Of a stretch of 64,000 nt of DNA, positions 40,802 to 57,921 are shown one piece after another. The notes under the pieces were generated by a model. The model did not search any database. It was not told the DNA's origin and saw only the letters and a program-made list of their open reading frames with translations. The stretch's first letter is position 1, and every line of letters begins with the position of its first letter. Where the stretch lies: contig PMOS01000024.1 in NCBI GenBank assembly GCA_003161435.1, positions 1 through 64,000 on the forward strand, in the 5' to 3' direction. The translations under genes were made by a program, and so were the position numbers. Source of the DNA: Vulcanimicrobiota bacterium (GTDB taxonomy: Bacteria > Vulcanimicrobiota > Vulcanimicrobiia > Vulcanimicrobiales > Vulcanimicrobiaceae).

Positions 40802-42231
40802 TTCACCAGCGGCAGAACGTTCGACGGGGTGTACGGAACCAGGCCGAGTGCGAACGTGACGACGACGCAGACGGTGACGGCGATCCAGGGCAGCGGGTTG
40901 GACGAACGCTCGTCCCGCACGTGCGCGAGGTCGGCCCGCGCGAACATCACGCGCACGATCTTGAAGTAGACGTAGGCCGAGATCGCGGTCCCCAGAATCA
41001 GGATGCCCGCCAGCCACGCGTAGCCCGCGCCGACGGTCGCCGCGAGGATCAGGATCTTGCCGGTGAAACCGATCGTCGGCGGCAAACCCGCCAGACCGAT
41101 CAGGAAGAACGTCATCGCCGCGGCGAGCCACGGGCGCCGGTAGGCGAGCCCGGCGAAGCGCGGCAAGCCGACGACGGCATCGCCGTCGCGCGCCATGAGC
41201 GCGACGACCGCGAACGCGCCCAGGTTCATCGCCGTATAGCCGGCCAGATAGAGGATCGCGTAGCGCAAGCCGAGCGCGGTCGTGCCGGCGAACGCCGTCA
41301 CGATGTAGCCGACCTGCGCGATCCCCGAGTACGCCAACAGCCGCTTCATGTCGGTCTGCGCGAGCGCGCCGAGGTTGCCGATCAGCATCGACAGCGCGGC
41401 GAGCACCCACAGCGGTGCGAGGATCGCCGCCGCGTGATCCGAGGGAAGCGCCGCGTACGCGAAGCGCGCCAGCACCGCCAGCGTCCCGGCCTTGGTGACG
41501 ACCGACATGAACGCCGTCACCGGCAACGGCGCGCCCTCGTACACGTCGGGGGTCCAGGCGTGGAACGGCACGAGGCTGAGCTTGAACGCGAGCCCGACCA
41601 GGAACAGGCCGGCACCGACGGCCAGCACCGGCGTGACCGGCGCGGTCGCGAGGACCGCGAACGCGACCGATCCCGTCGCGCCGAACAGCAGCGCCGAACC
41701 GTACAGCAAGAAGCCCGACGCCATCGAGCTCAGGATCAGATACTTGAGCGCCGACTCGCGCGCCGTCGACCGCACGGAGATCGCGCACAGGCAGTACAAT
41801 GCGAGCGAGAGCAGCTCCAGGCCGAGGAAAACGATCATCAGGTTCGCCGCGCCCGCCATCAACATCGCGCCGCTCGCGCTCCACAACAGCAGTGCGGTGG
41901 TACCCGCGACCTGATCGGATCGGCCGACACCGATCGAGAGCAGCAACGTCGCGATCGTCGCGACGATCACGATCTCGCTGAACACGATCGAGAAGCCGCC
42001 CTGCACGAACGCGCCGCCGAACGCGGCGTACTCGTGCGGATACTGTCCCGCGGCGAGCGCGCCCGCGACGACCAGCCCGACGATCGCCAGCCCGACCGCG
42101 ACGCCGCGCCGCGCCGCGCTCGCATCCTTGAAGAACAGGTCGACGAACAGGATCAGCAGCGGGACGATCGCGACGACGAACCACGGCAGCAGCGCGGCGT
42201 AGTCGGCCGCGACCGGAAAACTACCGAGCAC
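40798..42231 (-). CDS. nuoN: NADH-quinone oxidoreductase subunit N
   Basis: 477 residues from GTG 42231. About 14 membrane helices; one of three antiporter-like proton-pumping subunits of complex I. The family helices contain the key lysines and glutamate (MIVFLGLELLSLALYCLCA, LAFKLSLVPFHAWTPDVYEG, TDMKRLLAYSGIAQVGYI). It pumps protons across the inner membrane as electrons pass from NADH to quinone. It is the last nuo gene; its start overlaps nuoM by 11 bases and its stop overlaps the acetyltransferase start. Confidence 0.96.
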   Translation of the reverse strand: MLGSFPVAADYAALLPWFVVAIVPLLILFVDLFFKDASAARRGVAVGLAIVGLVVAGALAAGQYPHEYAAFGGAFVQGGFSIVFSEIVIVATIATLLLSIGVGRSDQVAGTTALLLWSASGAMLMAGAANLMIVFLGLELLSLALYCLCAISVRSTARESALKYLILSSMASGFLLYGSALLFGATGSVAFAVLATAPVTPVLAVGAGLFLVGLAFKLSLVPFHAWTPDVYEGAPLPVTAFMSVVTKAGTLAVLARFAYAALPSDHAAAILAPLWVLAALSMLIGNLGALAQTDMKRLLAYSGIAQVGYIVTAFAGTTALGLRYAILYLAGYTAMNLGAFAVVALMARDGDAVVGLPRFAGLAYRRPWLAAAMTFFLIGLAGLPPTIGFTGKILILAATVGAGYAWLAGILILGTAISAYVYFKIVRVMFARADLAHVRDERSSNPLPWIAVTVCVVVTFALGLVPYTPSNVLPLVK

Positions 42232-43645
42232 TGACGTTCACCGGAGCGGCGGTATGCGCGCCGATCGTCAGCGAGGTGATCGGCCCGGGATCGACGCCCA
42301 GCGCCAGGAACGCGATCACCAGTGGCGCGATCGCGAAACCTTCGAGCCAGGTCATGTCGCGGCGCTCGGGCAGATCGGGGACGTCCGGCCCGTTCATGAC
42401 GCCTTGGAACAACCGCAGCATGTACGCCGACGCCAGAATCACCGCGATCAGACCGACCAGCGCCGGCCACACCACGCCCGCACTGAAGAGGCCGGTCAGA
42501 ATCAAGATCTCGCCGGCAAATCCGGCCAGGCCCGGCAAGCCCAGCGCCGCCAGCGCGCCGATGACGAGCGCACCGGCGAGCTTGGGGTTGCGGCTGCCCA
42601 GGCCTCCGAGCCGGAGCAGATCGCGCGTCTCCTCGCGCTGCTCGACCGCGCCCAGGACGAGGAACAGCGCGGCGCTGAACAGCCCGTGCGCGACGATGTA
42701 GACCACCGCGCCTTGGATCGCAAGCTGCGAACCGGTGAACACCGCCAACAGGATCAGCCCCAAGTGCGAGAGCGAGCTGTACGCAACGATGCGCTTCGTG
42801 TCGCGTTCGGCCAGCGACGCGAGGGCACCGTAGATCAGCGCGATCGCGCCGAGGACGAACATCAGCGTGCGCGCCTGTAGCATCTCCGGCCGGAAGAACA
42901 CGCTGCAGATCACGATCAAGCCGTACAGGCCGGCCTTCGACTGCACCGCGGAAACGACCGCAACCATCGGCGTCGGCAGCTCGGCGTACGTGTCGGGCAT
43001 CCAGGTGTGGAACGGAAAGACCGGCGTCTTGATCAAGAACGCGAACGCGAAGCCGGCGAAGATCCAGGTGCCCCACACGATGCCGATCGCGATGTGCGCG
43101 TTCGGATCGTAAAGGACGTCCGTGGAGCCGCTCACCATGCCGAACGCGGCCGTCGCGAGCAGCAGCGCCAGGCCGCCGGCCAGGTTGTAGATCAGGTACT
43201 TCCAGGCGGCATGCGCGTGCGGTCCACCGTCGAGCAGCACCAAGAACACCGGCAACAGCATCAGATCCCAGAACAGCGCGAACAGCAGCAGGTCCTTCGC
43301 CAGGAACAGCCCGTTCATCGCGCCCTGCAATACGAGCAGCTGCACCGCAATGTTGCGCGCCCGCGGGCCGTTCAGCGCGAGCGCGGCGCCGAACGTCACC
43401 AGCGCGAGCAGCAGCACGATCCAGAACGAGATCGGGTTGAAGCCCAGATGGAACGACGCGACGAACGGCCGCGATAGCCAGCGCAGCGACGCATCCGGCG
43501 CCGCCGGGTCGTATGCCGCCAGCGCGAACGCGAGCGCCGCGACCGCCGCGGCGATGATGCGCACCAGGACGATCCGTTCGCGCGGGACGGCGTAGAGCGC
43601 GAGCCCGATCACGATCGGGCCGAGCACGAGAGCGGTGACGATCAT
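42221..43645 (-). CDS. nuoM: NADH-quinone oxidoreductase subunit M
   Basis: 474 residues from ATG 43645, in ATGA overlap with the nuoL stop. About 14 membrane helices; antiporter-like proton-pumping subunit. Typical segments are LFWDLMLLPVFLVLLDGGPH, FLIKTPVFPFHTWMPDTYAE and ERDTKRIVAYSSLSHLG, which hold the helix-break Lys and Glu. The length is slightly shorter than E. coli NuoM (about 509). Confidence 0.96.
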   Translation of the reverse strand: MIVTALVLGPIVIGLALYAVPRERIVLVRIIAAAVAALAFALAAYDPAAPDASLRWLSRPFVASFHLGFNPISFWIVLLLALVTFGAALALNGPRARNIAVQLLVLQGAMNGLFLAKDLLLFALFWDLMLLPVFLVLLDGGPHAHAAWKYLIYNLAGGLALLLATAAFGMVSGSTDVLYDPNAHIAIGIVWGTWIFAGFAFAFLIKTPVFPFHTWMPDTYAELPTPMVAVVSAVQSKAGLYGLIVICSVFFRPEMLQARTLMFVLGAIALIYGALASLAERDTKRIVAYSSLSHLGLILLAVFTGSQLAIQGAVVYIVAHGLFSAALFLVLGAVEQREETRDLLRLGGLGSRNPKLAGALVIGALAALGLPGLAGFAGEILILTGLFSAGVVWPALVGLIAVILASAYMLRLFQGVMNGPDVPDLPERRDMTWLEGFAIAPLVIAFLALGVDPGPITSLTIGAHTAAPVNVSAR

Positions 43646-45591
43646 CGGCCGACTCCGAACGCGAAGGCGTAGTACGCGACGACGCACACGACGCCGAACG
43701 CGAGCGAGAGCGCGTACGCGCGGACCAGCCCGGTCTGGAAGCTACGGAACAGGTGGCCCAGCCACTGCGCGGAGATCGCCACCTCGCGCACGGCGGCGTC
43801 GAGGACGTGCGGATCGAAGACGCGCACGAACCATGCGCCCACCGCGCGCGCCGGCCGGACCAGCAGCGCGTCGTAGGCCGCGTCGAAGTAGTAGGCGTTG
43901 ACGAGCACGCGCGGCATGTGGATCGTCTCGCCGCGCAGCCGCGCGACCGCGCCGGCATGCGCGGCGCGCGTTCCGTAGCGCACGTATGCGACGCCGATGC
44001 CGATCGCGACGACGGCCAGGACCAGCCCGGTCGAGGCCAGCTCGCCCAGCGGCGGCGCGACCTCGGCGACGCGCGGGAAGAACCCGGCGAAGAACCGCTG
44101 CCAGGGCGCGTTCGCGCCGCCGGCGTCGAGCCAGCCGATGAGGATCGACGGGACGATCAAGATCCCGACCGGCACCGACATCAGCCACGACGGCGCGTGA
44201 TGGTGCGGCTCTTCTTCCTCGGGATGATGACCTGAGCTGGCCGCCGTTCCGGCCAACTCGGGATGACGGATCCCCAGATCCGACGGGTCGACTTCACCAC
44301 GATACGCGCCGAGGAACGTCACGAACAATAGCCGGAACATGTAGTAGGCGGTGATTCCTGCGGTGATAACACCGACGGCGTACAGCCACGGATGCCCGGT
44401 GACGAGCGCGCCGTAGATGACGGCGTCCTTGCTGAAGTAGCCGCTGAAACCGGGGATGCCGCAGATGGCGAGCACGCCGACAGCCATCGCGATGAAGGCG
44501 AACGGCAAGCGCCGCCACAGTCCGCCCATCCGGCGCACGTCCTGCTCGTTGGCCAGCGCATGGATCACGATTCCCGCACCCAGGAACAGTTGGGCTTTGA
44601 AGAAGGCGTGGGTGAGGAAGTGGAACACGCCGGCGTCGTACGCCCCGACGCCGACGCCCATGATCATGTAGCCGATCTGCGACATCGTCGAGTAGGCCAG
44701 GATCCGTTTGATGTCCCACTGCGCGCAGCCCAGGATCGCGCCGGCGATCGCGGTGAGGGCGCCAATGACGCCGACCAGCTCCTGGGCGTCGGCCGACGCC
44801 GACCACAACGGCGCGAAGCGCGCGATCAGGTAGACGCCGGCGGTGACCATTGTCGCCGCGTGGATCAGCGCGGAGACCGGCGTCGGGCCCTCCATCGCGT
44901 CGGGCAGCCAGGTGTGCAGCGGAATCTGCGCCGACTTGGCGGCGCAGCCGATGAACAGCCCGAGGCAAACCAGGAACAGCTCCTGCTGCGTGAAGGCGGT
45001 CGCGAAGCGTGCAAAAATGTCGGCGTAGCCGATCGAGCCGACCTTCGCGACGATGATGAAGACCGCGAACATGATCCCGACGTCGCCGACGACGTTCATG
45101 ACGAACGCCTTGCGCGCGGCGGCGACCGCCGACGGCCGCTCGAACCAGAACCCGATCAGGAAATACGACGCGAGCCCGACCAGCCCCCAACCGACCAGCA
45201 GCCCGACGACGTTGTCGCTGAGCACCAGCGTGAGCATGGCGAACACGAAGAAGTTCATGTACGCGAAGAAGCGCGCGTAGGCGCGGTCGCCGTCCATGTA
45301 GCCCATCGAGTACACGTGGATGAGGAAGCCGACGCCGGTGATGATCAGCGTCCAGACGAGCGAGAGCCGGTCCAACTGCAGCCCGAACGCCCAGCCGGAG
45401 AGCCACGACACGAGGTGCAGGTTGAGCCCGGCGCCGGTCGTCGCATCGCCCCACAGCATGACGGCCGCGACGAACGGGACGCCGATCAGCGCCGAGCCGA
45501 TCGGGCCGGCCCACGACCGCAGCTGCGGGCCGAAGGCCCAGAGCAGAACGCCGCCGACCAGCGGGAAGAGCCATATCAGGAGCAGCAGCAC
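43642..45591 (-). CDS. nuoL: NADH-quinone oxidoreductase subunit L
   Basis: 649 residues if GTG 45591 is the start. The largest antiporter-like subunit, with the lateral C-terminal helix. Motifs include SAQIPLHTWLPDAMEGPTPV, WDIKRILAYSTMSQIGYMIM and FFKAQLFLGAGIVIHAL. A His/Glu-rich loop (about 455-470, HHPEEEEPHHHAP) is in a cytoplasmic or periplasmic loop. The frame is also open to CTG 45603, which overlaps the nuoK stop as CTGA and would add four residues; the GTG is the first ordinary start. The stop overlaps nuoM (ATGA). Confidence 0.95.
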   Translation of the reverse strand: MLLLLIWLFPLVGGVLLWAFGPQLRSWAGPIGSALIGVPFVAAVMLWGDATTGAGLNLHLVSWLSGWAFGLQLDRLSLVWTLIITGVGFLIHVYSMGYMDGDRAYARFFAYMNFFVFAMLTLVLSDNVVGLLVGWGLVGLASYFLIGFWFERPSAVAAARKAFVMNVVGDVGIMFAVFIIVAKVGSIGYADIFARFATAFTQQELFLVCLGLFIGCAAKSAQIPLHTWLPDAMEGPTPVSALIHAATMVTAGVYLIARFAPLWSASADAQELVGVIGALTAIAGAILGCAQWDIKRILAYSTMSQIGYMIMGVGVGAYDAGVFHFLTHAFFKAQLFLGAGIVIHALANEQDVRRMGGLWRRLPFAFIAMAVGVLAICGIPGFSGYFSKDAVIYGALVTGHPWLYAVGVITAGITAYYMFRLLFVTFLGAYRGEVDPSDLGIRHPELAGTAASSGHHPEEEEPHHHAPSWLMSVPVGILIVPSILIGWLDAGGANAPWQRFFAGFFPRVAEVAPPLGELASTGLVLAVVAIGIGVAYVRYGTRAAHAGAVARLRGETIHMPRVLVNAYYFDAAYDALLVRPARAVGAWFVRVFDPHVLDAAVREVAISAQWLGHLFRSFQTGLVRAYALSLAFGVVCVVAYYAFAFGVGR

Positions 45592-45599
45592 GATCGCGC

Positions 45600-45905
45600 T
45601 CAGCCTCGCAGCGCCGAGACTTCGTCGACGTCGACGTGCGCCGAGCGGCGGAACGTCATCGTGACGATCGCGAGGCCGATCGCGGCCTCTGCGGCGGCGA
45701 CGGTGATCACGAGGAATGCGAAGACGTGGCCCGTGTTGTTCACCCACGCGCGCGCGTAGGCCACCAGGGCGAGGTTCGCGGCGTTGAACAGCAGCTCGAT
45801 CGACATCAGCATGATCAGCGGATTGCGCCGCGCGATCACCCCGACGACGCCGATGAAGAACAGGACGGCGGAGAGCGCGACGTAGCTCTCGGGCGACACG
45901 GTCAT
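45600..45905 (-). CDS. nuoK: NADH-quinone oxidoreductase subunit K
   Basis: 101 residues, standard length. Three membrane helices with the conserved glutamates of the E-channel (LMSIELLFNAANLALVAYA; AAAEAAIGLAIV). It helps carry coupling energy from the quinone site to the pumps. Start ATG 45905 overlaps the nuoJ stop (ATGA). Confidence 0.97.
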   Translation of the reverse strand: MTVSPESYVALSAVLFFIGVVGVIARRNPLIMLMSIELLFNAANLALVAYARAWVNNTGHVFAFLVITVAAAEAAIGLAIVTMTFRRSAHVDVDEVSALRG

Positions 45906-46513
45906 CCGTTGTCATCCTGAGCTTGTCGAAGGGCCTTCACGATCGGCTCGCGCACGCCGGGGCGGCGTTTCTTCCGTCGCCCCTCGACCGCACCGGGAGT
46001 GGCGTCACCGGCGATCAGCACGACGCCGATCACGGCCACCATCAGGATGAACGCGGTGACTTCGAACGGCAGCAGGTTGGTGGTGAACAGCGCCGCACCG
46101 AAATTGGCGACGCTGCCGAACGCGTTCGCGTCGCCGGTCGTGCCGTTGGTCGTGGCTGTCGACACGACGGTGATCGGCGTGTGCAGCGCGGTGACGGTGA
46201 GCCCGGCCAGCGTCAGCACGGCGATCGCCAGCGCGGGGATGAGGATGCGCGGTGCCTTGTCGGGGCCGACCTCGAACGGCCGCGTACCGCTCGACAGCAG
46301 CGCGATGACGAACACGAACAGGATCAGGATCGCGCCGCTGTACACGACGATCTGCATCACCGCCAGGAACTCCGCCTGCAGCGTGAGGTACATGGCGGCG
46401 AGCGCGATGAAGTTCGCCAGCAGCCCGACGACCGAGTAGACCGGCTTCTGCGCCGTCACCGTGAACACCGCGCTCGCGATCAGGACCAGGGCAAGGATCC
46501 CGAAGACGATCAC
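45902..46513 (-). CDS. nuoJ: NADH-quinone oxidoreductase subunit J
   Basis: 203 residues from GTG 46513, in a GTGA overlap with the nuoI stop. Five membrane helices; the third has the conserved MQIVVYSGAILILFVFVI stretch with the pi-bulge region. A loop of about 30 residues rich in Thr/Asn (STATTNGTTGDANAFG) precedes helix four. The C-terminal tail is basic (GRRKKRRPG) and ends ALRQAQDDNG. Those last residues are encoded by a copy of the dispersed palindromic repeat, an unusual end for this subunit. Confidence 0.95.
   Translation of the reverse strand: MIVFGILALVLIASAVFTVTAQKPVYSVVGLLANFIALAAMYLTLQAEFLAVMQIVVYSGAILILFVFVIALLSSGTRPFEVGPDKAPRILIPALAIAVLTLAGLTVTALHTPITVVSTATTNGTTGDANAFGSVANFGAALFTTNLLPFEVTAFILMVAVIGVVLIAGDATPGAVEGRRKKRRPGVREPIVKALRQAQDDNG
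45910..45933 (-). repeat. dispersed palindromic repeat forming the 3' end of nuoJ
   Basis: On the minus strand the segment reads CCCTTCGACAAGCTCAGGATGACA, a close match to the repeat arm at 60850-60872. It is translated as ALRQAQDD at the end of NuoJ. Confidence 0.75.
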
Positions 46514-47133
46514 CGCGGCTCATCCTGCGTTTGTCGGAGGGCGGCGAGTCCGCGGCGCTGGGTGCGCAAGATGTGACCGCGGTTCGTCGCGTCGTAGCCC
46601 TCGGCGATGTCGACCGTATCCTTCGCGCGCATCACGCCGCCCAGGTCGGCCGGGATCCCGTTGGGCCGCTCGTCGGGCGGCGTGCCGGTGCCGGCTTCGG
46701 GCGGGACGAGCAAACGATCTTTGGCGTACACGAACGCGCCGCGCCGGTAGTCGGCCATCTCGAAGCGCGGCGTGAGCACGATCGCGTCGGTCGGACACGC
46801 TTCTTCGCACAGACCGCAGAAGATACAGCGCAGCTCGTCGATCTCGTAGCGCGCGGCGTACCGCTCGCCCGGCGAGCGGCGGTCTTCGGGCGTGTTCTCG
46901 GCCCCGATCACGGTGATCGCGTTGGCCGGGCAGGCGATCGCGCACAGCTCGCAGCCGATGCAGCGCTCCTTGCCGTCGTCGTAACGGCGCAGCTCGTGCA
47001 GCCCGTGGAAGCGCGGCGCGTGCTGCTTCTTGACCGACGGGTACTGGATCGTCGGCATCTTCTTGAACATGTAGCTGAACGTCGTCGAGAACCCGCGCAT
47101 CAGGGCGCCGACGTTGAAGAGGTTCTTACGCAT
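46510..47133 (-). CDS. nuoI: NADH-quinone oxidoreductase subunit I
   Basis: 207 residues. Two 4Fe-4S ferredoxin motifs: C58, C61, C64, C68 (CIGCELCAIACP) and C103, C106, C109, C113 (CIFCGLCEEACP). They hold clusters N6a and N6b, which pass electrons toward NuoB. The N-terminal amphipathic helix (about 8-24) sits on the membrane. The tail after about residue 165 ends LAALRQTQDEPR, where a degenerate repeat copy supplies the last codons. The start ATG 47133 overlaps the nuoH end by eight bases. Confidence 0.96.
   Translation of the reverse strand: MRKNLFNVGALMRGFSTTFSYMFKKMPTIQYPSVKKQHAPRFHGLHELRRYDDGKERCIGCELCAIACPANAITVIGAENTPEDRRSPGERYAARYEIDELRCIFCGLCEEACPTDAIVLTPRFEMADYRRGAFVYAKDRLLVPPEAGTGTPPDERPNGIPADLGGVMRAKDTVDIAEGYDATNRGHILRTQRRGLAALRQTQDEPR
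46516..46539 (-). repeat. degenerate palindromic repeat forming the 3' end of nuoI
   Basis: The minus strand reads CCCTCCGACAAACGCAGGATGA, differing from the nuoJ copy at a few positions. It is read in the same frame (ALRQTQDE) as in nuoJ. Confidence 0.5.
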
Positions 47134-48139
47134 GGGTCGGCCACACCGCCACGGCTACCGCCGTCAGGATCAAGTTGAGGGTCGCGACCGGGAGCAGCAC
47201 TTTCCACCCGAAGTCCATCAGGCGGTCGTAACGGAAGCGCGGCAGCGTCGAGCGCAACCAGATGTAGAAAAACAAGAACGCGGCCGCCTTGAGGATGAAC
47301 CACCCCAGGCCGACGAAACCGCCCGACGGCAGCCCCGGGATCGGCGAGTTCCAGCCGCCCAAGAAGAGCAGCGTCGCCAAGCACGAAACCGTGATCATGT
47401 TGAGGTACTCGGCGATGAAGAACAGTCCGAACCGCAGCCCCGAGTACTCGGTGTGGAACCCGCCGACCAGCTCGGTTTCCGCTTCGACCAGGTCGAACGG
47501 CGCGCGGTTGGTTTCGGCGACCGCCGTTATCACGTAGATCAGGAAGCCGATGATCTGCGGGATGACGAACCACAGCCGAAGCTGCGCGTTGACGATGTCG
47601 CCGAGCGCCGTCGAACCGGTGAGGATCAGCACGCCGATCACCGACATCGTCATCGACAGCTCGTACGAGATCATCTGCGCGGTGGAGCGCACCGACCCGA
47701 GCAGCGGAAACTTCGAGCCCGACGCCCAGCCGGCCAGCGAGATCCCGTAGACGCCGATCGAGCCGATCGCGAAGATGAACAGGATCCCCGCGTTGACGTT
47801 GCCGACTGACCACAACGTCCCGTCGGCACTGGCCGAGAACGGGATGATCGCGAACACTCCCATCGCGCAGATCAGCGAGATGAAGGGCGCGAGCCGGTAG
47901 ATCAGCGGGTCGGCGGTGTCGGGGGTGAGGTCTTCCTTGAAGATCATCTTCACCGCGTCCGCTGCCGGCTGCAGCAGGCCCCAAGGCCCGACCCGGTTCG
48001 GTCCCGGCCGCAGCTGCATCCAGCCCATCACCTTGCGCTCGGCCAGCATCGAGTAGGCGAAGGTCGTGATCACGACCCCCAGCACGACCGCGGATTTGAT
48101 CAGCACGACGATCCAGATCGGGATCGCGCTCACGCTCAC
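47126..48139 (-). CDS. nuoH: NADH-quinone oxidoreductase subunit H
   Basis: 337 residues from GTG 48139, in GTGA overlap with the nuoG stop; a second GTG lies two codons later. About eight membrane helices. Family marks are ERKVMGWMQLRPGPNRVGPW (34-53), KMIFKEDLTP, AETNRAPFDLVEAETELVGG (quinone-site acidic loop) and the LRSTLPRFRYDRLM end. It forms the quinone chamber with NuoB and NuoD and links to the E-channel. Confidence 0.97.
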   Translation of the reverse strand: MSVSAIPIWIVVLIKSAVVLGVVITTFAYSMLAERKVMGWMQLRPGPNRVGPWGLLQPAADAVKMIFKEDLTPDTADPLIYRLAPFISLICAMGVFAIIPFSASADGTLWSVGNVNAGILFIFAIGSIGVYGISLAGWASGSKFPLLGSVRSTAQMISYELSMTMSVIGVLILTGSTALGDIVNAQLRLWFVIPQIIGFLIYVITAVAETNRAPFDLVEAETELVGGFHTEYSGLRFGLFFIAEYLNMITVSCLATLLFLGGWNSPIPGLPSGGFVGLGWFILKAAAFLFFYIWLRSTLPRFRYDRLMDFGWKVLLPVATLNLILTAVAVAVWPTHA

Positions 48140-50355
48140 GCGCTCACCAAGGACTTCTCGACGCGGACCGCCGCGGTACCCAGCGCGTTGAGCGGCGCGC
48201 CCGGGAGTCCGTCGACGAGCGCGACCGCGCCGGCCGGGATGCGCGGGTCGACGACCACGACGAGCTCGCGCAGGGTAGCACCGCCCGCCGCCGCGACGTT
48301 CACCAGATCGCCGGCCTCGACGCCGATTGCGACTGCGGTCTTCGGGCAAATCGACGCGCGCGGTCGCGTTCGCAACTCGGCGATGCGCGGATCGAACGCG
48401 AGCGTCCCGCCGCCGGTGAAGATCGTGTGCTCGGCGATCACGCGCAACTCGCCGGGCCCGCCGGCGGCGCGCGGCTGCGCGATGAGGTCGGCGGCCGCCG
48501 GTGCCGCCGGCGGAGTGCGCACCAGCTCGCGCACGCGCGCTTCGACGGCATCGGGCAGCGGCAGATCGATGCCCAGCTTCTCGGCCAGCTCGACGATCAC
48601 GTCGCCGTCGGCGAGTAGCCCCTCCGGCGAGCGCACCGATCCGAGGACCGGCAGGACGTCGCCGGCGAAATCGGTCGTCGTCCCGCTCTTCTCGAACGCG
48701 CTGCACACCGGCAGGACGAGGTTCGCGAACTCGGCGGTCTCGGTCATGAACAGCTCGGTGACGACGACGAACGGCGTCGCGCGCAGCGCCGCCTCGACCA
48801 GCGAACGATCGGGGAAACGCAGCATCGGATTGGCACCGAGGATCGCCAGGACGCCGAGTTTTCCGTCGCGCGCGGCTTCGAGCATCGCGCGCGTGTTGAG
48901 CGCGCCGTCGTGCGGGCGCATGCCGAGCGCATCGGCGCCGCGGCCGTTCGGCGTCTCGGGCAGCACGTAACGATCGGCGGGAAAGGCGTGCAAAGGCGCG
49001 GTCAGCTCCGGGCCGCCGGGGATCATCACGCCGTCCCAGATCACCGCCATCTTGCCCGGCGCGTCACCGAGCGCGGCCCGCAGCTCGTCGGTGGTCGACG
49101 CATGGGTTTCGGGGACGAAGCTGTTCGCGTAGTGATCGCCGACCGAGATCAGCCGCGCGCCGTTGCGCGAGACAGCCTTGCGGATGCGCAGATCGAGCAC
49201 CGGGGCGAGCTCTGACGGCGGGCGACCGATCGTCACGATCGTGCTCGCGTGCTCGAGGTCGACGTGGTTGGCGAACGAGTCACTGTGCACGATGCTCTGC
49301 TCGCCGACGCGATGGTCGATGTTCTCGATCCCCAGCGCGCGGAACAGGTGCTGCGCAAGGTAGGCCTCTTCGTTGAGCAGCCGGCCGCCGCCGATGACGC
49401 CCGCATTCGCGCCGGCCTTCTTCAGCTCGGCGGCCCACAGCGCGAGCGCATCGTCCCAGTCGATCTGCACCCAGACACCATCTTGCTTGAGCAGCGGCGA
49501 GCTCAAGCGCCGCTCGTCCTGCACGAAGCCGATGTTGTAGCGCCCGCGGTCGCACAGCCAGGAGTCCGAGAGCGCGTCGTCCTCGGGGACGCTCATCGTG
49601 CGCAAGAGCGCGTCGCCGCGCTCGTCGACGTGCATCTGACAGCCGACCGCGCACTGCGTGCACGAGGTGGTGGTGCGGTGATTGTCCCACGGTCGCGAAC
49701 GGAACCGGTACGTCTTGGAGGTGAGCGCGCCGACCGGGCACAGCTCGGTGACGTTGCCGGTGAAGTCCGAGACGTACGGTTTTCCGGTCGCCGTCGCAAT
49801 GATCACGTGCGCGCCGCGGTCGTCGGTGCGCAGCGACTGCTCGCGCGTGATGATGTCGTCGAAGCGCACGCAGCGCTGGCAGACGATGCAGCGCTCCTCG
49901 TCGAGCACGATCGTGGGCCCGAGGTCGACCGCCTTGGGCTTGGGCATTTTCGGCTCGAGCATCCGCGAGGCGCCCTGGCCCCACGCCATCGCGTAGTCCT
50001 GGAGATCGCATTCGCCGCCCTTGTCGCAGATCGGGCAGTCCAGCGGGTGGTTGAGCAGGAAGAACTCGAGGATCGCGCGCCGCCCGTCGTCGACCCGCGG
50101 GTTCTGCGTGTGCACCTTCATCCCGTCGGCGACGGGCGTGTTGCACGCGATCTGCAGCTTGGGCATCCCGTCGATCTCGACCAAGCAGATGCGGCACAGC
50201 CCGGCCGGGCCGAGCTTCTCATGATAGCAGTACACCGGGATGTCGGTGTTGATCGCCTTGGCGGCCTCGACCAGCAGCGTCCCCTTGGGCACGCGCACGT
50301 CGACGCCGTCGATCGTGACGGTGACGAGATCGGTCTGCGGCACGGTGGCGGACAC
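48136..50355 (-). CDS. nuoG: NADH-quinone oxidoreductase subunit G
   Basis: 739 residues from GTG 50355. The N-terminal 2Fe-2S domain has CYHEKLGPAGLCRIC then ACNTP (cluster N1b). Next is the His/Cys-bound 4Fe-4S site HPLDCPICDKGGECD, the CIVCQRC...CPVGAL site, and CTQCAVGC in the molybdopterin-type domain (N7-like cluster). The remainder is the molybdopterin oxidoreductase-type fold without cofactor. It carries electrons between NuoF and NuoI in the peripheral arm. It starts directly after the stop of a tiny membrane gene. Confidence 0.96.
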   Translation of the reverse strand: MSATVPQTDLVTVTIDGVDVRVPKGTLLVEAAKAINTDIPVYCYHEKLGPAGLCRICLVEIDGMPKLQIACNTPVADGMKVHTQNPRVDDGRRAILEFFLLNHPLDCPICDKGGECDLQDYAMAWGQGASRMLEPKMPKPKAVDLGPTIVLDEERCIVCQRCVRFDDIITREQSLRTDDRGAHVIIATATGKPYVSDFTGNVTELCPVGALTSKTYRFRSRPWDNHRTTTSCTQCAVGCQMHVDERGDALLRTMSVPEDDALSDSWLCDRGRYNIGFVQDERRLSSPLLKQDGVWVQIDWDDALALWAAELKKAGANAGVIGGGRLLNEEAYLAQHLFRALGIENIDHRVGEQSIVHSDSFANHVDLEHASTIVTIGRPPSELAPVLDLRIRKAVSRNGARLISVGDHYANSFVPETHASTTDELRAALGDAPGKMAVIWDGVMIPGGPELTAPLHAFPADRYVLPETPNGRGADALGMRPHDGALNTRAMLEAARDGKLGVLAILGANPMLRFPDRSLVEAALRATPFVVVTELFMTETAEFANLVLPVCSAFEKSGTTTDFAGDVLPVLGSVRSPEGLLADGDVIVELAEKLGIDLPLPDAVEARVRELVRTPPAAPAAADLIAQPRAAGGPGELRVIAEHTIFTGGGTLAFDPRIAELRTRPRASICPKTAVAIGVEAGDLVNVAAAGGATLRELVVVVDPRIPAGAVALVDGLPGAPLNALGTAAVRVEKSLVSA

Positions 50356-50580
50356 TTAGCGCGACCTCCTGGTCGTCAAAAAGAAGATGATGGCGGCCAG
50401 CAAGAACCCGCCGGCGAGCCCGTAGAGCTTCCCGACCGTTTGGCTGTGCGCGTTGCTGCGCGCCAACAGCGAGGCGGTGATGTCGAGCACGCACGCAGCG
50501 GCAACGCAGGCAAACAGGATCCGCTGCTTCCCGCGCGGCGTGCTCACGAAGAGAGAGTACCGGCGGCCGAGATCGTTCAT
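50356..50580 (-). CDS. tiny two-helix membrane protein inside the nuo operon, copy B
   Basis: 74 residues from ATG 50580, in ATGA overlap with its paralogue upstream. Its stop abuts the nuoG start. The N-terminus MNDLGRRYSLFVSTPRGKQR is nearly the same as that of the upstream gene. Two hydrophobic helices (about 21-40 and 53-68) and a basic tail (TTRRSR) predict both ends in the cytoplasm. No known complex I subunit of this type was recognised. The tight coupling on both sides suggests a lineage-specific accessory subunit or assembly factor of complex I. Confidence 0.75.
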   Translation of the reverse strand: MNDLGRRYSLFVSTPRGKQRILFACVAAACVLDITASLLARSNAHSQTVGKLYGLAGGFLLAAIIFFLTTRRSR

Positions 50581-50807
50581 CGGGCGGCCTTCCGGTTCAC
50601 GAACATGAACACGACGGCGACCAGGACCAAACCGAGCCCGGCACCGGTGAGCGCGTGCAGCAGCTTGACGTCCGCGTACGGAGTGTTCCCCAGCAGTACG
50701 CTTGCGAGGTTCAGCAAGACGCCCACGGTGAGGATGAGTTTGACGATGAGCTGCTTGCCGGCCTTCGTACTCGCGAAGAGCTGATAGCGGCGGCCAAGAT
50801 CGTTCAT
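50577..50807 (-). CDS. tiny two-helix membrane protein inside the nuo operon, copy A
   Basis: 76 residues from ATG 50807, overlapping the nuoF stop by one base (TGATG). MNDLGRRYQLFASTKAGKQ is shared with copy B in 14 of 19 positions or so. The helices are about 21-41 and 49-70, with a basic RKAAR tail. The pair clearly arose by tandem duplication. Unknown function. Insertion between the genes for the NADH-binding subunit and NuoG, with translational coupling, points to stoichiometric production with complex I. Confidence 0.75.
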   Translation of the reverse strand: MNDLGRRYQLFASTKAGKQLIVKLILTVGVLLNLASVLLGNTPYADVKLLHALTGAGLGLVLVAVVFMFVNRKAAR

Positions 50808-52081
50808 CAGACCGCGACCTGCTGCGCCGGCCGTTTGATGTAGGCGCGGAACTGGTCTTCGTAGCGGGTGATCACCGACGCCAGGAACGGTTCGATCGAG
50901 TCGCCCAGCGCGCACAGGTTCAATCCGGTCAGCTGGTGCGCGGCGGATTTGATCACGTCGACGTCCGAGTCGACGCCGCGGCCGTCGAGGATGCGCTCGA
51001 GCGTGCGCTGCAACCAGTGTCCGCCTTCGCGGCACGGCGTGCACTGTCCGCACGACTCGTGCGAGAAGAACCGGATCAGCGCGTAGGAGGCCTTCACGAA
51101 ATCGGTCGTGTCGTCGAACACGACCATCGCGCCCGAACCCAGCATCGAGCCCGCTTTGGTGACCGAGTCGAAGTCGTACGAGACGTCGAGGTGCTCTTCG
51201 AACAGACAGGCCGACGAACCGCCGCCCGGCTGCACGCCCATGAACGTGCGCCCCGGGCGCAGTCCCCCGGCGCAATCGTAGATCAGTTGCCGAATCGTGG
51301 TGCCGAGTGCAACCTCGTAGTTGCCGGGCTTGGCGACGTGGCCCGAGATCGAGACGACCTTGTAGCCCGGCGAGCGCTCGGGGCCGACTTTGGCGAACCA
51401 CTCCGCGCCGTTGCGCATGATGTACGGCAGATATGCGAGCGTCTCGACGTTGTTCACGACGGTCGGTTCACCGTACAAGCCTTTGACGGCCGGGAACGGC
51501 GGCTTCAACCGCGGCTCGCCGCGCTTGCCCTCGAGCGAGTTCAACAGACCCGTCTCTTCGCCGCAGATGTACGCACCAGCGCCGCGGTGGATGGTGAGCT
51601 CGAGATTCGTGTCCGTGCCGAACAGCTTCTCGCCGATGAAGCCGGCATCGCGCGCTTGGCGGACGGCGTCGCGCATGATCTCGTACCCGCGCTTGAACTC
51701 GCCCCGAATGTAGATGTATGCGTGCGTGCAGCCGATCGCGTACGCGCCGATCAACATCCCCTCGATGATTTGATGCGGCGTCTGCTCGAGCAGCATGTGG
51801 TCTTTGAACGTGCCGGGCTCGGCTTCGTCGCAGTTGCACACCAGGTAGCGCGGGTGCCCGTTGTTGGGCAGGAACGACCACTTGCGTCCGGTCGGAAACC
51901 CGGCTCCGCCGCGACCGCGCAGGTTCGAGCCGTTGCAGATGTCAGACACCGCTTTGGGCGACAGCTCGGCGATCGCGCGGCGCAGTTGCTCGTAGCCGCC
52001 TTGGGCCGCATAGACGGCGAGGTCGCGCAGGTTCAACTCGCCGATGCCCTTGGTGAGGACCGGCGTGATCAGCTCCGGCAT
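50807..52081 (-). CDS. nuoF: NADH-quinone oxidoreductase subunit F
   Basis: 424 residues. NADH/FMN site: RGRGGAGFPTGRKW (about 55-68) and the following CNCDEAEPGTFKD. GAGAYICGEETGLLNSLEG is the FMN/NAD Rossmann-like signature. The 4Fe-4S cluster N3 is held by ESCGQCTPCREG plus a later Cys in LNLCALGD. It oxidises NADH and passes electrons to NuoE/NuoG clusters. Start ATG 52081 overlaps the nuoE stop by one base (TGATG). Confidence 0.97.
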   Translation of the reverse strand: MPELITPVLTKGIGELNLRDLAVYAAQGGYEQLRRAIAELSPKAVSDICNGSNLRGRGGAGFPTGRKWSFLPNNGHPRYLVCNCDEAEPGTFKDHMLLEQTPHQIIEGMLIGAYAIGCTHAYIYIRGEFKRGYEIMRDAVRQARDAGFIGEKLFGTDTNLELTIHRGAGAYICGEETGLLNSLEGKRGEPRLKPPFPAVKGLYGEPTVVNNVETLAYLPYIMRNGAEWFAKVGPERSPGYKVVSISGHVAKPGNYEVALGTTIRQLIYDCAGGLRPGRTFMGVQPGGGSSACLFEEHLDVSYDFDSVTKAGSMLGSGAMVVFDDTTDFVKASYALIRFFSHESCGQCTPCREGGHWLQRTLERILDGRGVDSDVDVIKSAAHQLTGLNLCALGDSIEPFLASVITRYEDQFRAYIKRPAQQVAV

Positions 52082-52917
52082 CAGTGATCCGCCTCGGCGA
52101 GCTCGGGGCGCAGCGCCGTCTCGTGCACCAGCCGTTCATTCGAGCGCGTCTCGTACTGCGGACGGCCGACGATGAGATCGAACATCACCAAGCCGCTCGC
52201 ATCGCCGACGCCGCCGGCGTTGTTCGGATTCGACACGCCCAAGGCCCCGGCCGACTTGAGGCCCGTGTCTTGCGCGACTTTCCAGCTGCGGCCCGGCCGC
52301 ACCGTCTGCGGCAGCGGCGCGATCTCGTAGCTTCCCGCGCGAATTGCGGCCAGCATGGCGTCGACCGACTCGCGGGTGAGGTCGTAGACGAACTCGAGGT
52401 TCACCTGTGCGCACGGCGCGCGATCGCAGGCGGCGAGGCACTCGACCTCTTCGTACGACATCAGGCCGTCGGCCGTCGTCTCATGATGCTGAACGCCGAT
52501 CTGCTCGCGGGCGTACGCCATGATCTCTTCCGCGCCGTTGAGCATGCACGACAGATTCCGGCAGATCTGGATCATGTACTTGCCGACCGGGCGGCGGAAC
52601 AGCAGCGTGTAGAACGAGATCGTCGACTCGACGGTCGCCGGCGTTTCGCCGACCAGATGCGCGATCGCCGCCAGCGCGTCGGCCGAGACGTAGCCTTCCT
52701 GCTCTTGGAACAAGTGCGCCAGCGGGATCAGCGCGGAGCGCTTCTGCTCGTACTGCGCGATCATCGGTTCGATCTGCGGCAACAGTTGCGCGTAGAGCGC
52801 ATCGAAAGCGTTCCCCGCACGCTGGACATACGGCGACCAGTCGGCCGGCGCGATGGCTGCGGCGACCGCGTCGGGGCCAGGGTGGACGCCGGTCGCGGCG
52901 TCGGACTGGGTGGTCAC
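52081..52917 (-). CDS. nuoE: NADH-quinone oxidoreductase subunit E
   Basis: 278 residues from GTG 52917, longer than the usual 160-180. The thioredoxin-like 2Fe-2S domain (about 45-205) has C119, C124, C160 and C164 (CRNLSC; ECLAACDRAPC). There is an N-terminal extension of about 40 residues and a C-terminal one of about 70 (GLKSAGALGVSNPNNAGG and after) with no recognised domain. Cluster N1a lies here. It is the first gene of the second nuo block and begins the nuoEF-x-y-GHIJKLMN run. Confidence 0.95.
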   Translation of the reverse strand: MTTQSDAATGVHPGPDAVAAAIAPADWSPYVQRAGNAFDALYAQLLPQIEPMIAQYEQKRSALIPLAHLFQEQEGYVSADALAAIAHLVGETPATVESTISFYTLLFRRPVGKYMIQICRNLSCMLNGAEEIMAYAREQIGVQHHETTADGLMSYEEVECLAACDRAPCAQVNLEFVYDLTRESVDAMLAAIRAGSYEIAPLPQTVRPGRSWKVAQDTGLKSAGALGVSNPNNAGGVGDASGLVMFDLIVGRPQYETRSNERLVHETALRPELAEADH

Positions 52918-53058
52918 CGGTGATCCGCCCGTAGGTCCGAAGAGTGAACGAGAAAGCGCGGCATCGACCGGCTTTCCTTCGGATTGTAAAGCGCCCGCGC
53001 CTTCGGATCGTGCGCCTGTTTGGGCACGACATTTGTCGCACCAGCCGATGGCGTACGG

Positions 53059-53226: not shown

Positions 53227-53997
53227 CTACAGCAGCGACCGCACGAAGCCGCCGTCGACGGCGATCGTCTGCCCGGTGACGTACCGTGCGCCCTCGCCGC
53301 ACAAGAACGCGACCAGCGGCGCGAACTCTTCGGGCGTACCCACCCTCTTCATCGGGACCTCGGCTTGCGCCGCTGCACGAATCGCGTCGTCGTCTCCCCC
53401 GTAGATCTGCCGCAACCGGTCGGTGAGGATGCGGCCGGTCGCGATCACGTTGATCGTGACGCCGTCGGGCGCGACTTGCCCCGAGAGCGTCTTGAGCGCA
53501 GCGACCAGCGCCGTGCGATACGCGTTGGAGAGCACGAGATTGGGGATCGGCGCCTTGACCGAGGTCGACGTCAGCGCGACGACGCGGCCCCAGCCGCGCT
53601 CGCGCATCGCCGGCACCGTCGCGTACACCAGGTCGAGCATGCTGCGCAGCGTCCCGTGATAGGCGGCGTCCCAGTCGGGGAGCGTCATATCCAAGAACGT
53701 GCCGGGCTTCGGTCCACCGCCGTTGGCGATCACGATGTCGACGCCGCCGAACGCGTCGCGCACCTCGTCGACGAGCTTGGCCATCGCACCGGGCTCGTTC
53801 TGGTCGACCGCAAACGCGCGCGCTTTTTTCGCGCCGAGCGTCAGCGCGTCGCCGGCGAGCTGTTCCAAGCGATCGCGGCGGCGCGCGGCGAGCGCCAGGG
53901 TCGCGCCCTCGCAGGCGAGTTGCTTGGCGACGGCCTCGCCGATCCCCGAGCTGGCACCGGTGACGAGCGCAACCTTACCGACGATCTCCAAGTCCAC
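53227..53997 (-). CDS. short-chain dehydrogenase/reductase with altered active site
   Basis: 256 residues. Rossmann start with TGASSGIG (13-20) for NAD(P) binding, NGGG (about 92-95) in place of NAG, and the C-terminal [18 protein letters not shown] typical of FabG-like SDRs. At the active site the usual YxxxK is missing: the TSTSV serine strand is followed by [11 protein letters not shown], so Ser and Arg appear to sit where Tyr and Lys are expected. This LSNxxR pattern marks a known atypical SDR subgroup. Substrate unknown. It lies between the two nuo blocks on the same strand. Confidence 0.85.
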
Positions 53998-54119
53998 GAA
54001 CGACCTCCGAACGGGCTTCGATACTCTTCGCTTAGACCGCAGCGTGGGTGAGGCCCCCGCTGCCGTGCCGAGAGGCCGAGCAAGCTAGCCAGAGAATGGC
54101 CCCGGTCCGGAGGATACCC

Positions 54120-54657: not shown

Positions 54658-54864
54658 CTAGCGCGCGCCGTGGCCGAGGTGCCAACCGTGCTTCTTGCAC
54701 GGATACGGCGCCAGGCCCACGGCCGTGCGCGGGATCGCGCGTTCGGCGAGCTTCTTCGTCGCGAAAGCGGCCTTCGGCGCGCCGCTCTTGTTGTAGCACG
54801 TCCGCGTGCCGCCAGTCTTGCGCGGCTTCGGCGGTTGCGGTTGGTCGCCGGAACGCGCGATCAG
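54658..54864 (-). CDS. small Cys/His protein with C-terminal GWHLGH motif, apparent CTG start
   Basis: 68 residues. Two cysteines and a C-terminal CKKHGWHLGHGAR, with a preceding AFATKKLAERAI helix, match a known class of tiny proteins that end in YxCxxCxxWHLGH-like motifs. There is no ATG, GTG or TTG in frame. The only candidate is CTG 54864, which overlaps the nuoD stop as CTGA; an AUC one base later is another. The conserved motif argues that the frame is real. Coupling to nuoD by the overlapping stop is likely. Possibly a zinc or nucleic-acid-binding protein. Confidence 0.6.
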   Translation of the reverse strand: MIARSGDQPQPPKPRKTGGTRTCYNKSGAPKAAFATKKLAERAIPRTAVGLAPYPCKKHGWHLGHGAR

Positions 54865-56093
54865 CGATCGACCTCGCCGAAGACGGGGTCGAGCGAGCCG
54901 ATCATCACGACCATGTCGGCGATCAGCTCGCCGACCGCGATCTTCTTGAGCACCTGCAAGTTGTACATCGAGGGCGGCCGCGTGCGCACGCGCCACGGCC
55001 GGTTGTCGCCGTTGGACACGACGTAGTAGCCCAGCTCGCCGCGCGGTCCTTCGACCGCTTGGTAGACGTCGCCGGGCGGGACGCGGAACGACTCGGAGAC
55101 GAGCTTGAAGTGGTGGATCAGCGCCTCCATCGAGAGCGCGATCGTCTCCTTGGGCGGCGGCGCGAACTTCGTGTCGGGGATCTGCCAGGCGCCCGGAGTG
55201 TCGAGCTGCTTGCGCACCTGGCGGATGATGCGCATCGCCTCGTCCATCTCGTCGAGCCGCACCAGGAAGCGCGCGTACGCATCGCCTTCGGTGCGCGTCG
55301 GCACGTCGAACTCGTAGTCGCCGTAGCCGCTGTACGGGAAGGCGCGCCGCACGTCGTACGGGATGCCGGTCGCGCGCAGCGTCGGACCGGTCAGCGACCA
55401 CGCGAGCGCGTCGTCGGACGACAGGATCCCGACGTCGATCATGCGGTCTTGCAGGATCGGGTTCTTCTGCAGCAGCCGCCGCACGTCGCGCATTCGCGGT
55501 TCGTACATCGCGATCACGCCGTCGAGCTTGTCCAGGAATCCGCGCGGCAGATCCTGACCCAGGCCGCCGACGCGAATGTAGTTGGGGTGCATCCGCGCCC
55601 CGCCCGACGCTTCGAATAGATCCAAAATCCGTTCGCGCAGATCGAAGCAATAGAAGAATCCGGTCAGCGCGCCCAGGTCGATCCCGCCCGTGCCGAGCCA
55701 CACGCAGTGCGACGCGATGCGCGAGAGCTCGCACAACAACACGCGCACCTGTTGCGCGCGGGGCGGGATGCGATCGTCGATCCCCAGCAGCTTCTCGACC
55801 GCGAGGTAGTAGCACAGCGCGTTGGTGAGCGGCGAGAGGTAGTCCATCCGCTCGATGACGGTCGACGCCTGCGACCAGAACAGGTTCTCGGCGCTCTTCT
55901 CGATCCCGGTGTGCAGGTAGCCGATCTCCGGCGAGGCTTTGGTGACGATCTCGCCTTCGATCTCGGTGATGATCTGCAGTACGCCGTGCGTCGACGGGTG
56001 CTGCGGACCCATCGAGAGCACCATGCGGTTCCCCGTGCGCTCGACGACGTCGACGGAGTAGCTCGATTCAGGTACGACGGTCGAGGTCGTCAC
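54861..56093 (-). CDS. nuoD: NADH-quinone oxidoreductase subunit D
   Basis: 410 residues from GTG 56093, overlapping the nuoC stop (GTGA). The quinone-binding hinge GPQHPSTHG (about 29-37) and the 49-kDa-subunit segments GYLHTGIEKSAENLFWSQAS, YGDYEFDVPTRTEGDAYAR and the C-terminal IGSLDPVFGEVDR are present. With NuoB it forms the quinone reduction site. Not fused to NuoC. Confidence 0.97.
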   Translation of the reverse strand: MTTSTVVPESSYSVDVVERTGNRMVLSMGPQHPSTHGVLQIITEIEGEIVTKASPEIGYLHTGIEKSAENLFWSQASTVIERMDYLSPLTNALCYYLAVEKLLGIDDRIPPRAQQVRVLLCELSRIASHCVWLGTGGIDLGALTGFFYCFDLRERILDLFEASGGARMHPNYIRVGGLGQDLPRGFLDKLDGVIAMYEPRMRDVRRLLQKNPILQDRMIDVGILSSDDALAWSLTGPTLRATGIPYDVRRAFPYSGYGDYEFDVPTRTEGDAYARFLVRLDEMDEAMRIIRQVRKQLDTPGAWQIPDTKFAPPPKETIALSMEALIHHFKLVSESFRVPPGDVYQAVEGPRGELGYYVVSNGDNRPWRVRTRPPSMYNLQVLKKIAVGELIADMVVMIGSLDPVFGEVDR

Positions 56094-56710
56094 TTGGAGT
56101 TGTCCTCGGTCTTGTTGCCGCGGGCTTGGGCGATCTGGCGCTGCAGTGCCGCCGCGGTCTTCCCGGACGCCGGCGTTCCGGCCGCGACGTTGGACTTGAG
56201 CGCGAACGATGGGCGCGGCGTCCGCTCGCGCGCGGGGCCGCGCAGCGGGTAATCCTTGCGCAGGGGATAGCCTTCCCAGTCGTCGGGCATCTGGATGCGG
56301 CGCATGTCCGGGTGACCATTGAAGCGCACGCCGTAGAGATCGTAGATCTCGCGTTCGGCCCAATCGGCCGACGGCCACAGATCGGTGACGGTCGGCAGGG
56401 CCGGGTCGGGCTCGCCGACGGCGCACAGCACGCGCACGCGTTCGGGCGTGCCGACCGCGGCGATCGTCGTCGCGTCGACCGGGAGTCGCAGCAGATGATA
56501 CACGACGTCGAAGCGTGCCGGCTCGCGGCCCGGATAGTCGGCGCCGCCGACGTCGAGCAGCATGGCGAACCCTTCGCCTTTGAGCTGCTCGAGCGTCGCG
56601 CGCAGCTCGGCCGGCATGACGCGCAGGATTCGCGCGTCGGCGATGTCGGGACGCACGGCGGTCGGGTCGAGCGCGGTCGCGCCGGCCGGCGGCGTTTGTG
56701 ACGACGGCAT
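56090..56710 (-). CDS. nuoC: NADH-quinone oxidoreductase subunit C
   Basis: 206 residues from ATG 56710, overlapping the nuoB stop by one base. The 30-kDa signature region DWAEREIYDLYGVRFNGHPD (about 123-142) with RIQMPDDWEGYPLRKDYPL is present. The C-terminal tail after about 165 (Ala/Gln/Lys-rich) is long and probably disordered. It helps hold NuoD and NuoB in the connecting arm. Confidence 0.95.
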   Translation of the reverse strand: MPSSQTPPAGATALDPTAVRPDIADARILRVMPAELRATLEQLKGEGFAMLLDVGGADYPGREPARFDVVYHLLRLPVDATTIAAVGTPERVRVLCAVGEPDPALPTVTDLWPSADWAEREIYDLYGVRFNGHPDMRRIQMPDDWEGYPLRKDYPLRGPARERTPRPSFALKSNVAAGTPASGKTAAALQRQIAQARGNKTEDNSK

Positions 56711-57192
56711 CAGGCGCGGGCCAGGATCCCGCCGCGGCCGCCCTGTTTGATCTGCTGCTGGATCAAGTTGACCGCGTACAGCAGGCCATCGGGCGTGGGC
56801 GGGCAGCCGGGGACGTACACATCGACCGGGATGATCGTGTCGACGCCTTGGACGATCGCGTAGTTGTCGAATACGCCGCCGCTCGAGGCGCAGGCGCCCA
56901 TCGAGATGACCCACTTCGGATCGGCCATCTGATCGTACAGACGTTTCACGATCGGGGCCATCTTGCGCGCCACGCGGCCCGAGACGATCATCAAGTCCGC
57001 CTGGCGCGGCGACGCGCGGAAGACCTCCGAGCCGAGCCGCGCAATGTCGTACTCCGGCGCCGTCGCGGTCATCATCTCGATCGCGCAGCAGGCCAGCCCC
57101 ATCGTCAACGGCCACACGCTCGACGACTGGGCCCAACGGGCGACCGAGTCGACCGTGGTGAGCAAGAAGTCGCCGCCGCTGCCTAACGCCAC
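56710..57192 (-). CDS. nuoB: NADH-quinone oxidoreductase subunit B
   Basis: 160 residues from GTG 57192, overlapping the nuoA end by ten bases. Ligands of the terminal 4Fe-4S cluster N2 are C35, C36, C101 and C130 ([26 protein letters not shown]). It passes electrons to quinone. Confidence 0.97.
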
Positions 57193-57536
57193 TGGAATCC
57201 GCCTCTCTTCCAGACGTAAGCATACCCGATCGCCAGCACGATCACGAAGATCAACATCTCAGCCAGACCGAACAGGCGCAGGGCGTGCATCTGCACGGCC
57301 CAGGGGTAGAACGACGCGGCCTCGACGTCGAAGATCACGAACAGCATCGCGATCAGGTAGAACCGAACCGGGAATCGGCCGGAGACGTCGGAGGTCGGTT
57401 CGACGCCGCACTCGTACGCTTCCGACTTCACCGGATTGGGTTTTTTGCGAGCCACGGTTCCCGGCAGCAGGCAGAAGGCCAGGGCTGCCAGGAACGCGAC
57501 GGCGAGATAGATAGCGACCGGACCGTAGGGAGACAT
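57183..57536 (-). CDS. nuoA: NADH-quinone oxidoreductase subunit A
   Basis: 117 residues from ATG 57536 (AGG five bases upstream). Three membrane helices. The loop between helices 1 and 2 has [20 protein letters not shown], the conserved quinone-chamber loop, and the second helix has [15 protein letters not shown]. First gene of the complex I operon; only 22 bases separate it from the divergent lipoprotein gene, so its promoter must overlap that gene's coding region. Confidence 0.96.
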
Positions 57537-57558
57537 CGACCTGAAGATATACACGAAA

Positions 57559-57921
57559 TTGACCCGCCGTGCCTCCGTCGTCGCGCTGATCGTCGCCTCG
57601 ATCGGGCTGCTGGGCGCGAAGGGCTGCGACAACCCCAACGGGCAGGGCGTCACCGACCGCGGACGCGTGGTCGGCACGCTCGTCAACGCCGCGCACCCGA
57701 CCGAGCCGCTAAACACCGCGACGATCCAGATCGGCACGCAAGTCACCCGGATCTCGCCGGCGGACAAGGGCAGCTTTCACCTCGACGAGGTCCCGACGGG
57801 GACGCAGACGGTGCAGATCAGCTCGCCCGGTTTCAGCACGTACTCGGCCCCGGTGGTCGTGCGGAAGGGCGAAACCACCGACCTCAACGTGGTCGGCCTC
57901 ACCTCGCAGACCGGCCTCTGA
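57559..57921 (+). CDS. lipoprotein with carboxypeptidase-regulatory-like domain
   Basis: 120 residues from TTG 57559. Lipoprotein signal: basic MTRR, hydrophobic core, then GLLGAKGC (modified C23). The single domain (about 33-112) has GRVVGTLVNAAHPTEPLNTA, the FHLDEVPTGTQTVQIS turn and a final strand, as in Cna-B/CarboxypepD_reg modules. A cell-surface or periplasmic structural piece. Its stop overlaps the CTG of the next frame (CTGA). Confidence 0.7.
   Translation: MTRRASVVALIVASIGLLGAKGCDNPNGQGVTDRGRVVGTLVNAAHPTEPLNTATIQIGTQVTRISPADKGSFHLDEVPTGTQTVQISSPGFSTYSAPVVVRKGETTDLNVVGLTSQTGL

Follow-up and report, generated by a model that had tools for sequence, protein, structure and literature searches.

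Introduction

Tiny transmembrane (TM) peptides, such as CydX, are encoded beside other respiratory enzymes; CydX has one TM helix, is widely conserved, and has a demonstrated function. In complex I, the NADH module is assembled separately from the membrane arm. Unidentified reading frames are present in the nuo operons of both Paracoccus and Rhodobacter capsulatus. The usual description of prokaryotic complex I gives it 14 subunits (PMC8762328). For cyanobacteria, NdhP, a TM peptide of less than 5 kDa, has been described as a component of NDH-1L that is needed for this complex (PMC4131877). The complex I of Paracoccus has been reported to carry the supernumerary subunits NDUFS4, NDUFS6, NDUFA12, and PIMT, three of which are thought to stabilize the NADH module (PMC11522691).

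Here, we describe two small genes, x and y, located between nuoF and nuoG in the draft genome (83% complete, 44 contigs) of a soil bacterium of the Vulcanimicrobiota (Eremiobacterota). They resemble CydX as genes for tiny TM proteins beside an enzyme gene, and differ from it in having two predicted helices. Like NdhP, which we regard by analogy as the nearest in kind, x and y are small proteins encoded with complex I genes, their TM character being predicted. NdhP and NdhQ, the single-TM peptides (<5 kDa) described for cyanobacterial NDH-1, share with x and y the tiny size and the tie to a complex I-type enzyme (PMC4131877), but x and y have two TM segments by prediction, and their tie to complex I is one of gene location. 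The supernumerary subunits reported from Paracoccus are likewise extra, lineage-restricted proteins beside the bacterial 14-subunit core; in contrast to x and y, they belong to the hydrophilic arm or heel, are not TM hairpins, and have no sequence match to either protein (PMC11522691). Among open-access titles and the openings of abstracts, a range that excludes most subscription papers, we found no report of extra small membrane genes between nuoF and nuoG.

Gene Organization of the Locus

In the window, a stretch of 64,000 nucleotides (contig PMOS01000024.1, positions 1 to 64,000), the minus strand carries the full nuo operon, with matches to all 14 complex I subunit types. The order is nuoA-B-C-D, a short-chain dehydrogenase gene, nuoE, nuoF, x, y, nuoG, and nuoH to nuoN.

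nuoA, B, C, D, 54861..57767, minus strand: ORF bounds, start codons unrefined
Short-chain dehydrogenase gene, 53227..53997, minus strand: between nuoD and nuoE
nuoE, 52081..52917, minus strand: Pfam 2Fe-2S_thioredx (E 8.4e-46)
nuoF, 50807..52081, minus strand: Pfam Complex1_51K (E 2.3e-47); stop overlaps the x start
x, 50577..50807, minus strand: type-A protein of 76 aa, predicted to form a membrane hairpin; first in the tandem
y, 50356..50580, minus strand: type-A protein of 74 aa, predicted to form a membrane hairpin; second in the tandem
nuoG, 48136..50355, minus strand: Pfam Molybdopterin, Fer2_4, and Fer4_Nqo3; start directly after the y stop
nuoH-I-J-K-L-M-N, 40798..48145, minus strand: compact, without inserts; nuoH start approximate; nuoM and nuoN, both matching Proton_antipo_M, told apart by order

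The initial annotation had described two coupled ORFs of 76 and 74 aa at this position, and we confirmed both ORFs and the coupling of every junction. The nuoF stop and the x start have one base in common (TGATG), the x stop and the y start overlap by four bases (ATGA), and the TAA stop of y is followed without a spacer by the GTG start of nuoG. An AGGAGG ribosome-binding-site-like motif lies within the final codons of y, upstream of nuoG. The earlier statement that x and y are not standard Nuo subunits also holds, as neither matched a Nuo model and all 14 types were found elsewhere in the operon. Dinucleotide shuffles of the two ORFs remained open in 197 and 395 of 1000 cases, which makes openness by itself a weak argument. 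The strong evidence is the membrane character: an open frame with two TM segments arose in 0/1000 shuffles of either ORF, and likewise in 0/1000 for every type-A member with two helices (six in all). Both x and y look like real genes.

With x as the query, a search of its own genome returned y (E 9.7e-9, 37% identity) and, at E up to 10, no other match, in line with the earlier description of a duplicated pair; on sequence grounds, x and y are paralogues. Codons 2–19 comprise nine identical codons, five synonymous differences, and four non-synonymous differences, and 44/57 bases of the first 19 codons are identical. Such closeness would suit a recent tandem duplication without specific meaning beyond dosage, but over 73 codons the x–y identity (25) falls below that of y with its homologues in the related genomes G001 (32) and G010 (30). 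Either the duplication is an older one, therefore, or x and y have diverged to an unusual degree. Moreover, genome G009 also has two ORFs at this junction, only one of which is type A, and we consider a recent duplication of this kind very improbable.

Neither protein gave a match above the cut-offs of Pfam, NCBIfam, or PHROGs, and no named PHROG family was obtained; x had three weak PHROG matches of unknown function (best E 0.042) and y had none. DUF3188 (PF11384) is, like x and y, a small protein of unknown function. Its weak match to x (residues 30–73) scored 12 bits against a cut-off of 24.6 (E 0.16), y showed no match, and membership was rejected. No match was found for x among plasmids or for the profile among 177635 PDB sequences at E up to 1, and neither PDB sequences nor Pfam and NCBIfam revealed homology to a known complex I accessory subunit. 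The best Foldseek hit in the PDB (E 1.9) is uninformative for a helix hairpin. No RNA element was recognized at the locus, as Rfam gave no match at the gathering score within 46000–54000.

Predicted Membrane Topology

The AlphaFold2 model of x, computed from seven aligned sequences, has a short helix at the N-terminus, followed by a hairpin of two helices (helices 2–13, 15–40, and 47–75; mean pLDDT 84.7). As a prediction, the proposal that x and y are membrane proteins was thus borne out by two TM segments and the hairpin model. In six sequences, the net charge was +3 or +4 for residues 1–20, 0 to +2 for the loop, and +2 or +3 for the C-terminus. The charge at both ends favors a topology in which both termini are cytoplasmic.

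The N-terminal block, a basic short helix with a DLGRRYxLFxxTxxGK-like motif, is the most conserved part in x, y, and the G001 and G010 proteins; it is weak in G009 and largely lost in G006 and G008. An unusually amphipathic character of this helix was rejected, since 1123/5000 shuffles reached the value of x; the G009 copy was the exception (248/5000).

Occurrence among Relatives

A scan of genome contigs with x alone yielded no relative; divergence within the genus is too great for the patterns that it uses, and the scan was uninformative on distribution. In a search of 98 genomes, the source genome included, x detected homologues in G010 (E 6.8e-9, 36% identity) and G001 (E 1.6e-8, 38% identity), both of the same genus. 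Each genome has a single copy, which lies precisely at the nuoF–nuoG junction and has ATGA and GTGA overlaps. A four-row profile built without G006 and G008 recovered both of these at the junction (6.7e-6 and 2.2e-9), and in G009 the type-A gene was recognized, by reading the junction, as the second of two small ORFs. A seven-row profile run against 149 phylum genomes gave 9e-33 to 4e-25 for type A, values that are circular as the profile includes the type-A rows themselves, and 4.6e-4 for the next best match. Among the candidates scored in this search (in some genomes, the best 39 of up to 59), no comparable homologue lay away from the junction. All convincing homologues from the profile searches of up to 149 phylum genomes were located between nuoF and nuoG, rather than mostly away from nuo genes, the outcome that the initial annotation had named as counterevidence.

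Ten junctions were resolved in the genus: six contain type A, one contains a 33-aa remnant, and three are empty. In 6/6 type-A genomes, the inserted frames overlap or directly abut nuoF and nuoG. In G003, G004, and G007 (91, 95, and 95% complete), nuoF and nuoG abut or overlap without type A, and no type-A match was found elsewhere in these genomes at E up to 0.1. G005 (99% complete) has a coupled frame of 33 aa that begins with MND and ends in a segment resembling the second helix, best read as a type-A remnant. G002 gave no nuoF match at E 1e-150. Judging from these homology searches, type A was found in one genus only among the genomes examined. On a 27-row NuoF–NuoG tree, the presence of type A required four changes and that of any TM microprotein eight, counts that cannot separate gain from loss. 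Because type A is absent in some relatives, an accessory rather than a core role fits better. The restriction to one genus, the gaps within it, and the fact that in sister genera the junction also takes repeats and unrelated genes count against a general role.

The first ORF in the G009 gap (L184) encodes a 60-aa membrane protein and precedes the type-A gene. Common ancestry with type A was not supported (hhalign probability 0.7%), although short TM proteins may be related beyond detection. Its weak match to the Pfam family YiaAB (E 0.0048), like that of the G008 protein to PAP2 (E 0.0023), lies below the cut-off and was set aside.

Codon-Level Constraint and Translational Coupling

The small proteins share 29–39% identity with x (22% for G009), and a single residue is invariant across the seven type-A sequences. 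NuoF of G010, G001, G006, and G008 (L118, L116, L114, and L115) is 85–91% identical to that of the window; the G009 row (L184) comes from a contig end, which makes its branch and its 66% NuoF identity unreliable. For 19/21 type-A pairs, compared on protein-guided alignments that favor amino-acid similarity, no more than 9/2000 redistributions of the same substitutions attained the observed BLOSUM score, the exceptions being G010–G006 (204/2000) and G010–G008 (32/2000). On plain identity, 14/21 pairs were at 100/2000 or below. The cleanest pairs, without internal gaps, were y–G001 (9/2000) and y–G010 (5/2000), and G001–G010 (363/2000) was significant on BLOSUM only. As judged from these codon comparisons, the type-A proteins are under amino-acid-level constraint despite their fast divergence. 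The NRR codons conserved at the C-terminus fall on the ribosome-binding-site-like motif that precedes nuoG (CCGGAGAG); the C-terminal conservation may therefore reside in part at the DNA level.

This motif raises the question of a translational relay, in which the frame would lead ribosomes that finish nuoF on to the nuoG start and supply the ribosome-binding site of nuoG, with the peptide being incidental. A motif of this type occurs in the last codons in 6/6 type-A genomes, compared with 19/37 insert-free loci, and five inserts without TM segments hold an ORF running from the nuoF stop to 4–7 bases past the estimated nuoG start. The latter frames, however, would be open by chance in 255–406/1000 shuffles, and the ORF in G038 ends 67 bp short of nuoG. 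Most insert-free relatives have nuoF and nuoG overlapping or abutting, which makes a relay unneeded, and neither the TM character nor the amino-acid constraint would be explained. We therefore regard a relay as distinctly improbable.

Inserts at the nuoF–nuoG Junction

We compared the junctions of 81 operons, comprising 80 named loci and the window and including records titled Omnitrophota (L190), Lysobacterales (L192), and Gammaproteobacteria (L193). Inserts of at least 90 bp were present at nuoF–nuoG in 18/81 operons, compared with 0–5 at each other junction: 5/50 at nuoK–nuoL, 2/72 at nuoE–nuoF, 1/43 at nuoM–nuoN, and none at the other five (n = 60, 56, 51, 50, and 44).

Within the taxonomic family, the nuoF–nuoG junction was resolved in 90/99 genomes, the other nine having no nuoF match at E 1e-150. 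Gaps of at least 90 bp occurred in 23/90, with nuoG starts outside the genus extrapolated from alignments and the gaps of G048 and G135 (165 and 124) being unsure. They contain a TM microprotein (13), the remnant (1), a protein of 155–168 aa (2), ORFs without TM segments (5), or no ORF (2). The 13 TM microproteins comprise six of type A, four of type B, and three single cases, namely two-helix proteins in G038 and G040 and a one-helix protein in G032; those without a detectable relationship to type A are found at the same junction in seven other genera. Type B, with one helix, occurs in G047, G017, G026, and G024, which form a supported clade of four genera. Its AlphaFold2 model is poor (pLDDT 64.7, a single long helix at 25–47), and in the codon test 6/6 type-B pairs were at 0/2000 on BLOSUM and 5/6 at 22 or below on identity. 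hhalign did not support a shared origin of type A with type B (probability 1.2%) or with the G038 protein (5.8%), although kinship of such short TM proteins beyond detection is possible.

The protein of 155–168 aa is found in two genomes of one genus (G057, L086; G127, L146/L226), in gaps of 451 and 490 bp and with an ATGA overlap. It has a signal-like N-terminus; as this is its one hydrophobic segment, the protein was left out of the TM microprotein count. The insert in G042 (L136, 11246–11430), one of those without TM segments, is a dispersed repeat with at least eight matches in its genome, itself included, at 73–100% identity among the best 40 of 88 candidates scored. A frame similar to it lies in G124 (L144/L219).

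The strongest rival to a role in complex I is that nuoF–nuoG is the most permissive point of the operon, where genes would ride as passengers on nuo expression with an unrelated function or little function. We hold this to be possible. The excess of inserts at this junction is in its favor, as is the mixed content of the 23 family gaps, with a secreted-looking protein, ORFs without TM segments, and the dispersed repeat of G042. So are the different microproteins of the genera, which show no detectable kinship, and the repeated absence of type A inside its own genus. Against passengers, TM microproteins make up 13/18 of the nuoF–nuoG inserts of at least 90 bp, compared with 0/7 at nuoE–nuoF and nuoK–nuoL, whose inserts contain no TM ORF (Fisher p 0.0016, uncorrected for relatedness and leaving out the 1471-bp nuoM–nuoN insert of L171). 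The amino-acid-level constraint in types A and B and the sharing of type B by a supported four-genus clade also argue against passengers. The junction is permissive in general, yet membrane microproteins are over-represented there.

A bolder proposal is that the junction repeatedly recruits unrelated, possibly newly born membrane microproteins for one job, namely drawing the translation of nuoF/nuoG, or the NADH module as it forms, to the membrane for docking on the membrane arm. We think this unlikely. If it were true, non-homologous one- and two-helix proteins would be functional substitutes, and the accessory layer of complex I would have been reinvented repeatedly.

Possible Role in Complex I

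Our best single guess, to which we assign a probability of roughly 45%, is that x and y are lineage-specific, dispensable proteins made by translational coupling that serve complex I, with which we infer them to be associated, as accessory or assembly factors. They would be small inner-membrane proteins with two TM helices, cytoplasmic ends, and a basic N-terminal helix, as the predicted topology suggests. Translational coupling would produce them in step with NuoF and NuoG, with the hairpin placed in the membrane beside the membrane arm or close to it. On the cytoplasmic side, the N-terminus might then contact either newly synthesized NuoE-F-G, the NADH module, or the foot of the peripheral arm, and x and y may thereby help to dock or stabilize the NADH module. 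Alternatively, they might act as a small peripheral subunit that stabilizes the complex once it is assembled.

If the microproteins do bind complex I, this would be a case of accessory subunits coming and going over a short time, inside a single genus; the gain and loss of mitochondrial accessory subunits, by contrast, can be inferred from deep branches only. The finding is real and new in detail: beyond the initial annotation, the trait is confined to one genus among the genomes searched, fast-evolving, dispensable, and situated in a high-turnover junction. A relative in culture, Vulcanimicrobium alpinus WC8-2, for which a gap-free genome of 3.50 Mbp has been reported (PMC9758169), may open the question to experiment.

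Further Observations on the Operon

The nuoK–nuoL junction appears as a second, weaker insertion site, with inserts of 216–517 bp without TM ORFs in 5/50 operons (L127, L130, L142, L166, and L169). The short-chain dehydrogenase gene of the window had no copy detectable by tblastn at E 1e-20 in 80 relative loci, some of which end short of the region. Directly downstream of nuoN, the 3' part of an ORF on the minus strand (40349–42184) matches GNAT acetyltransferase models, below their cut-offs, over residues 518–607.
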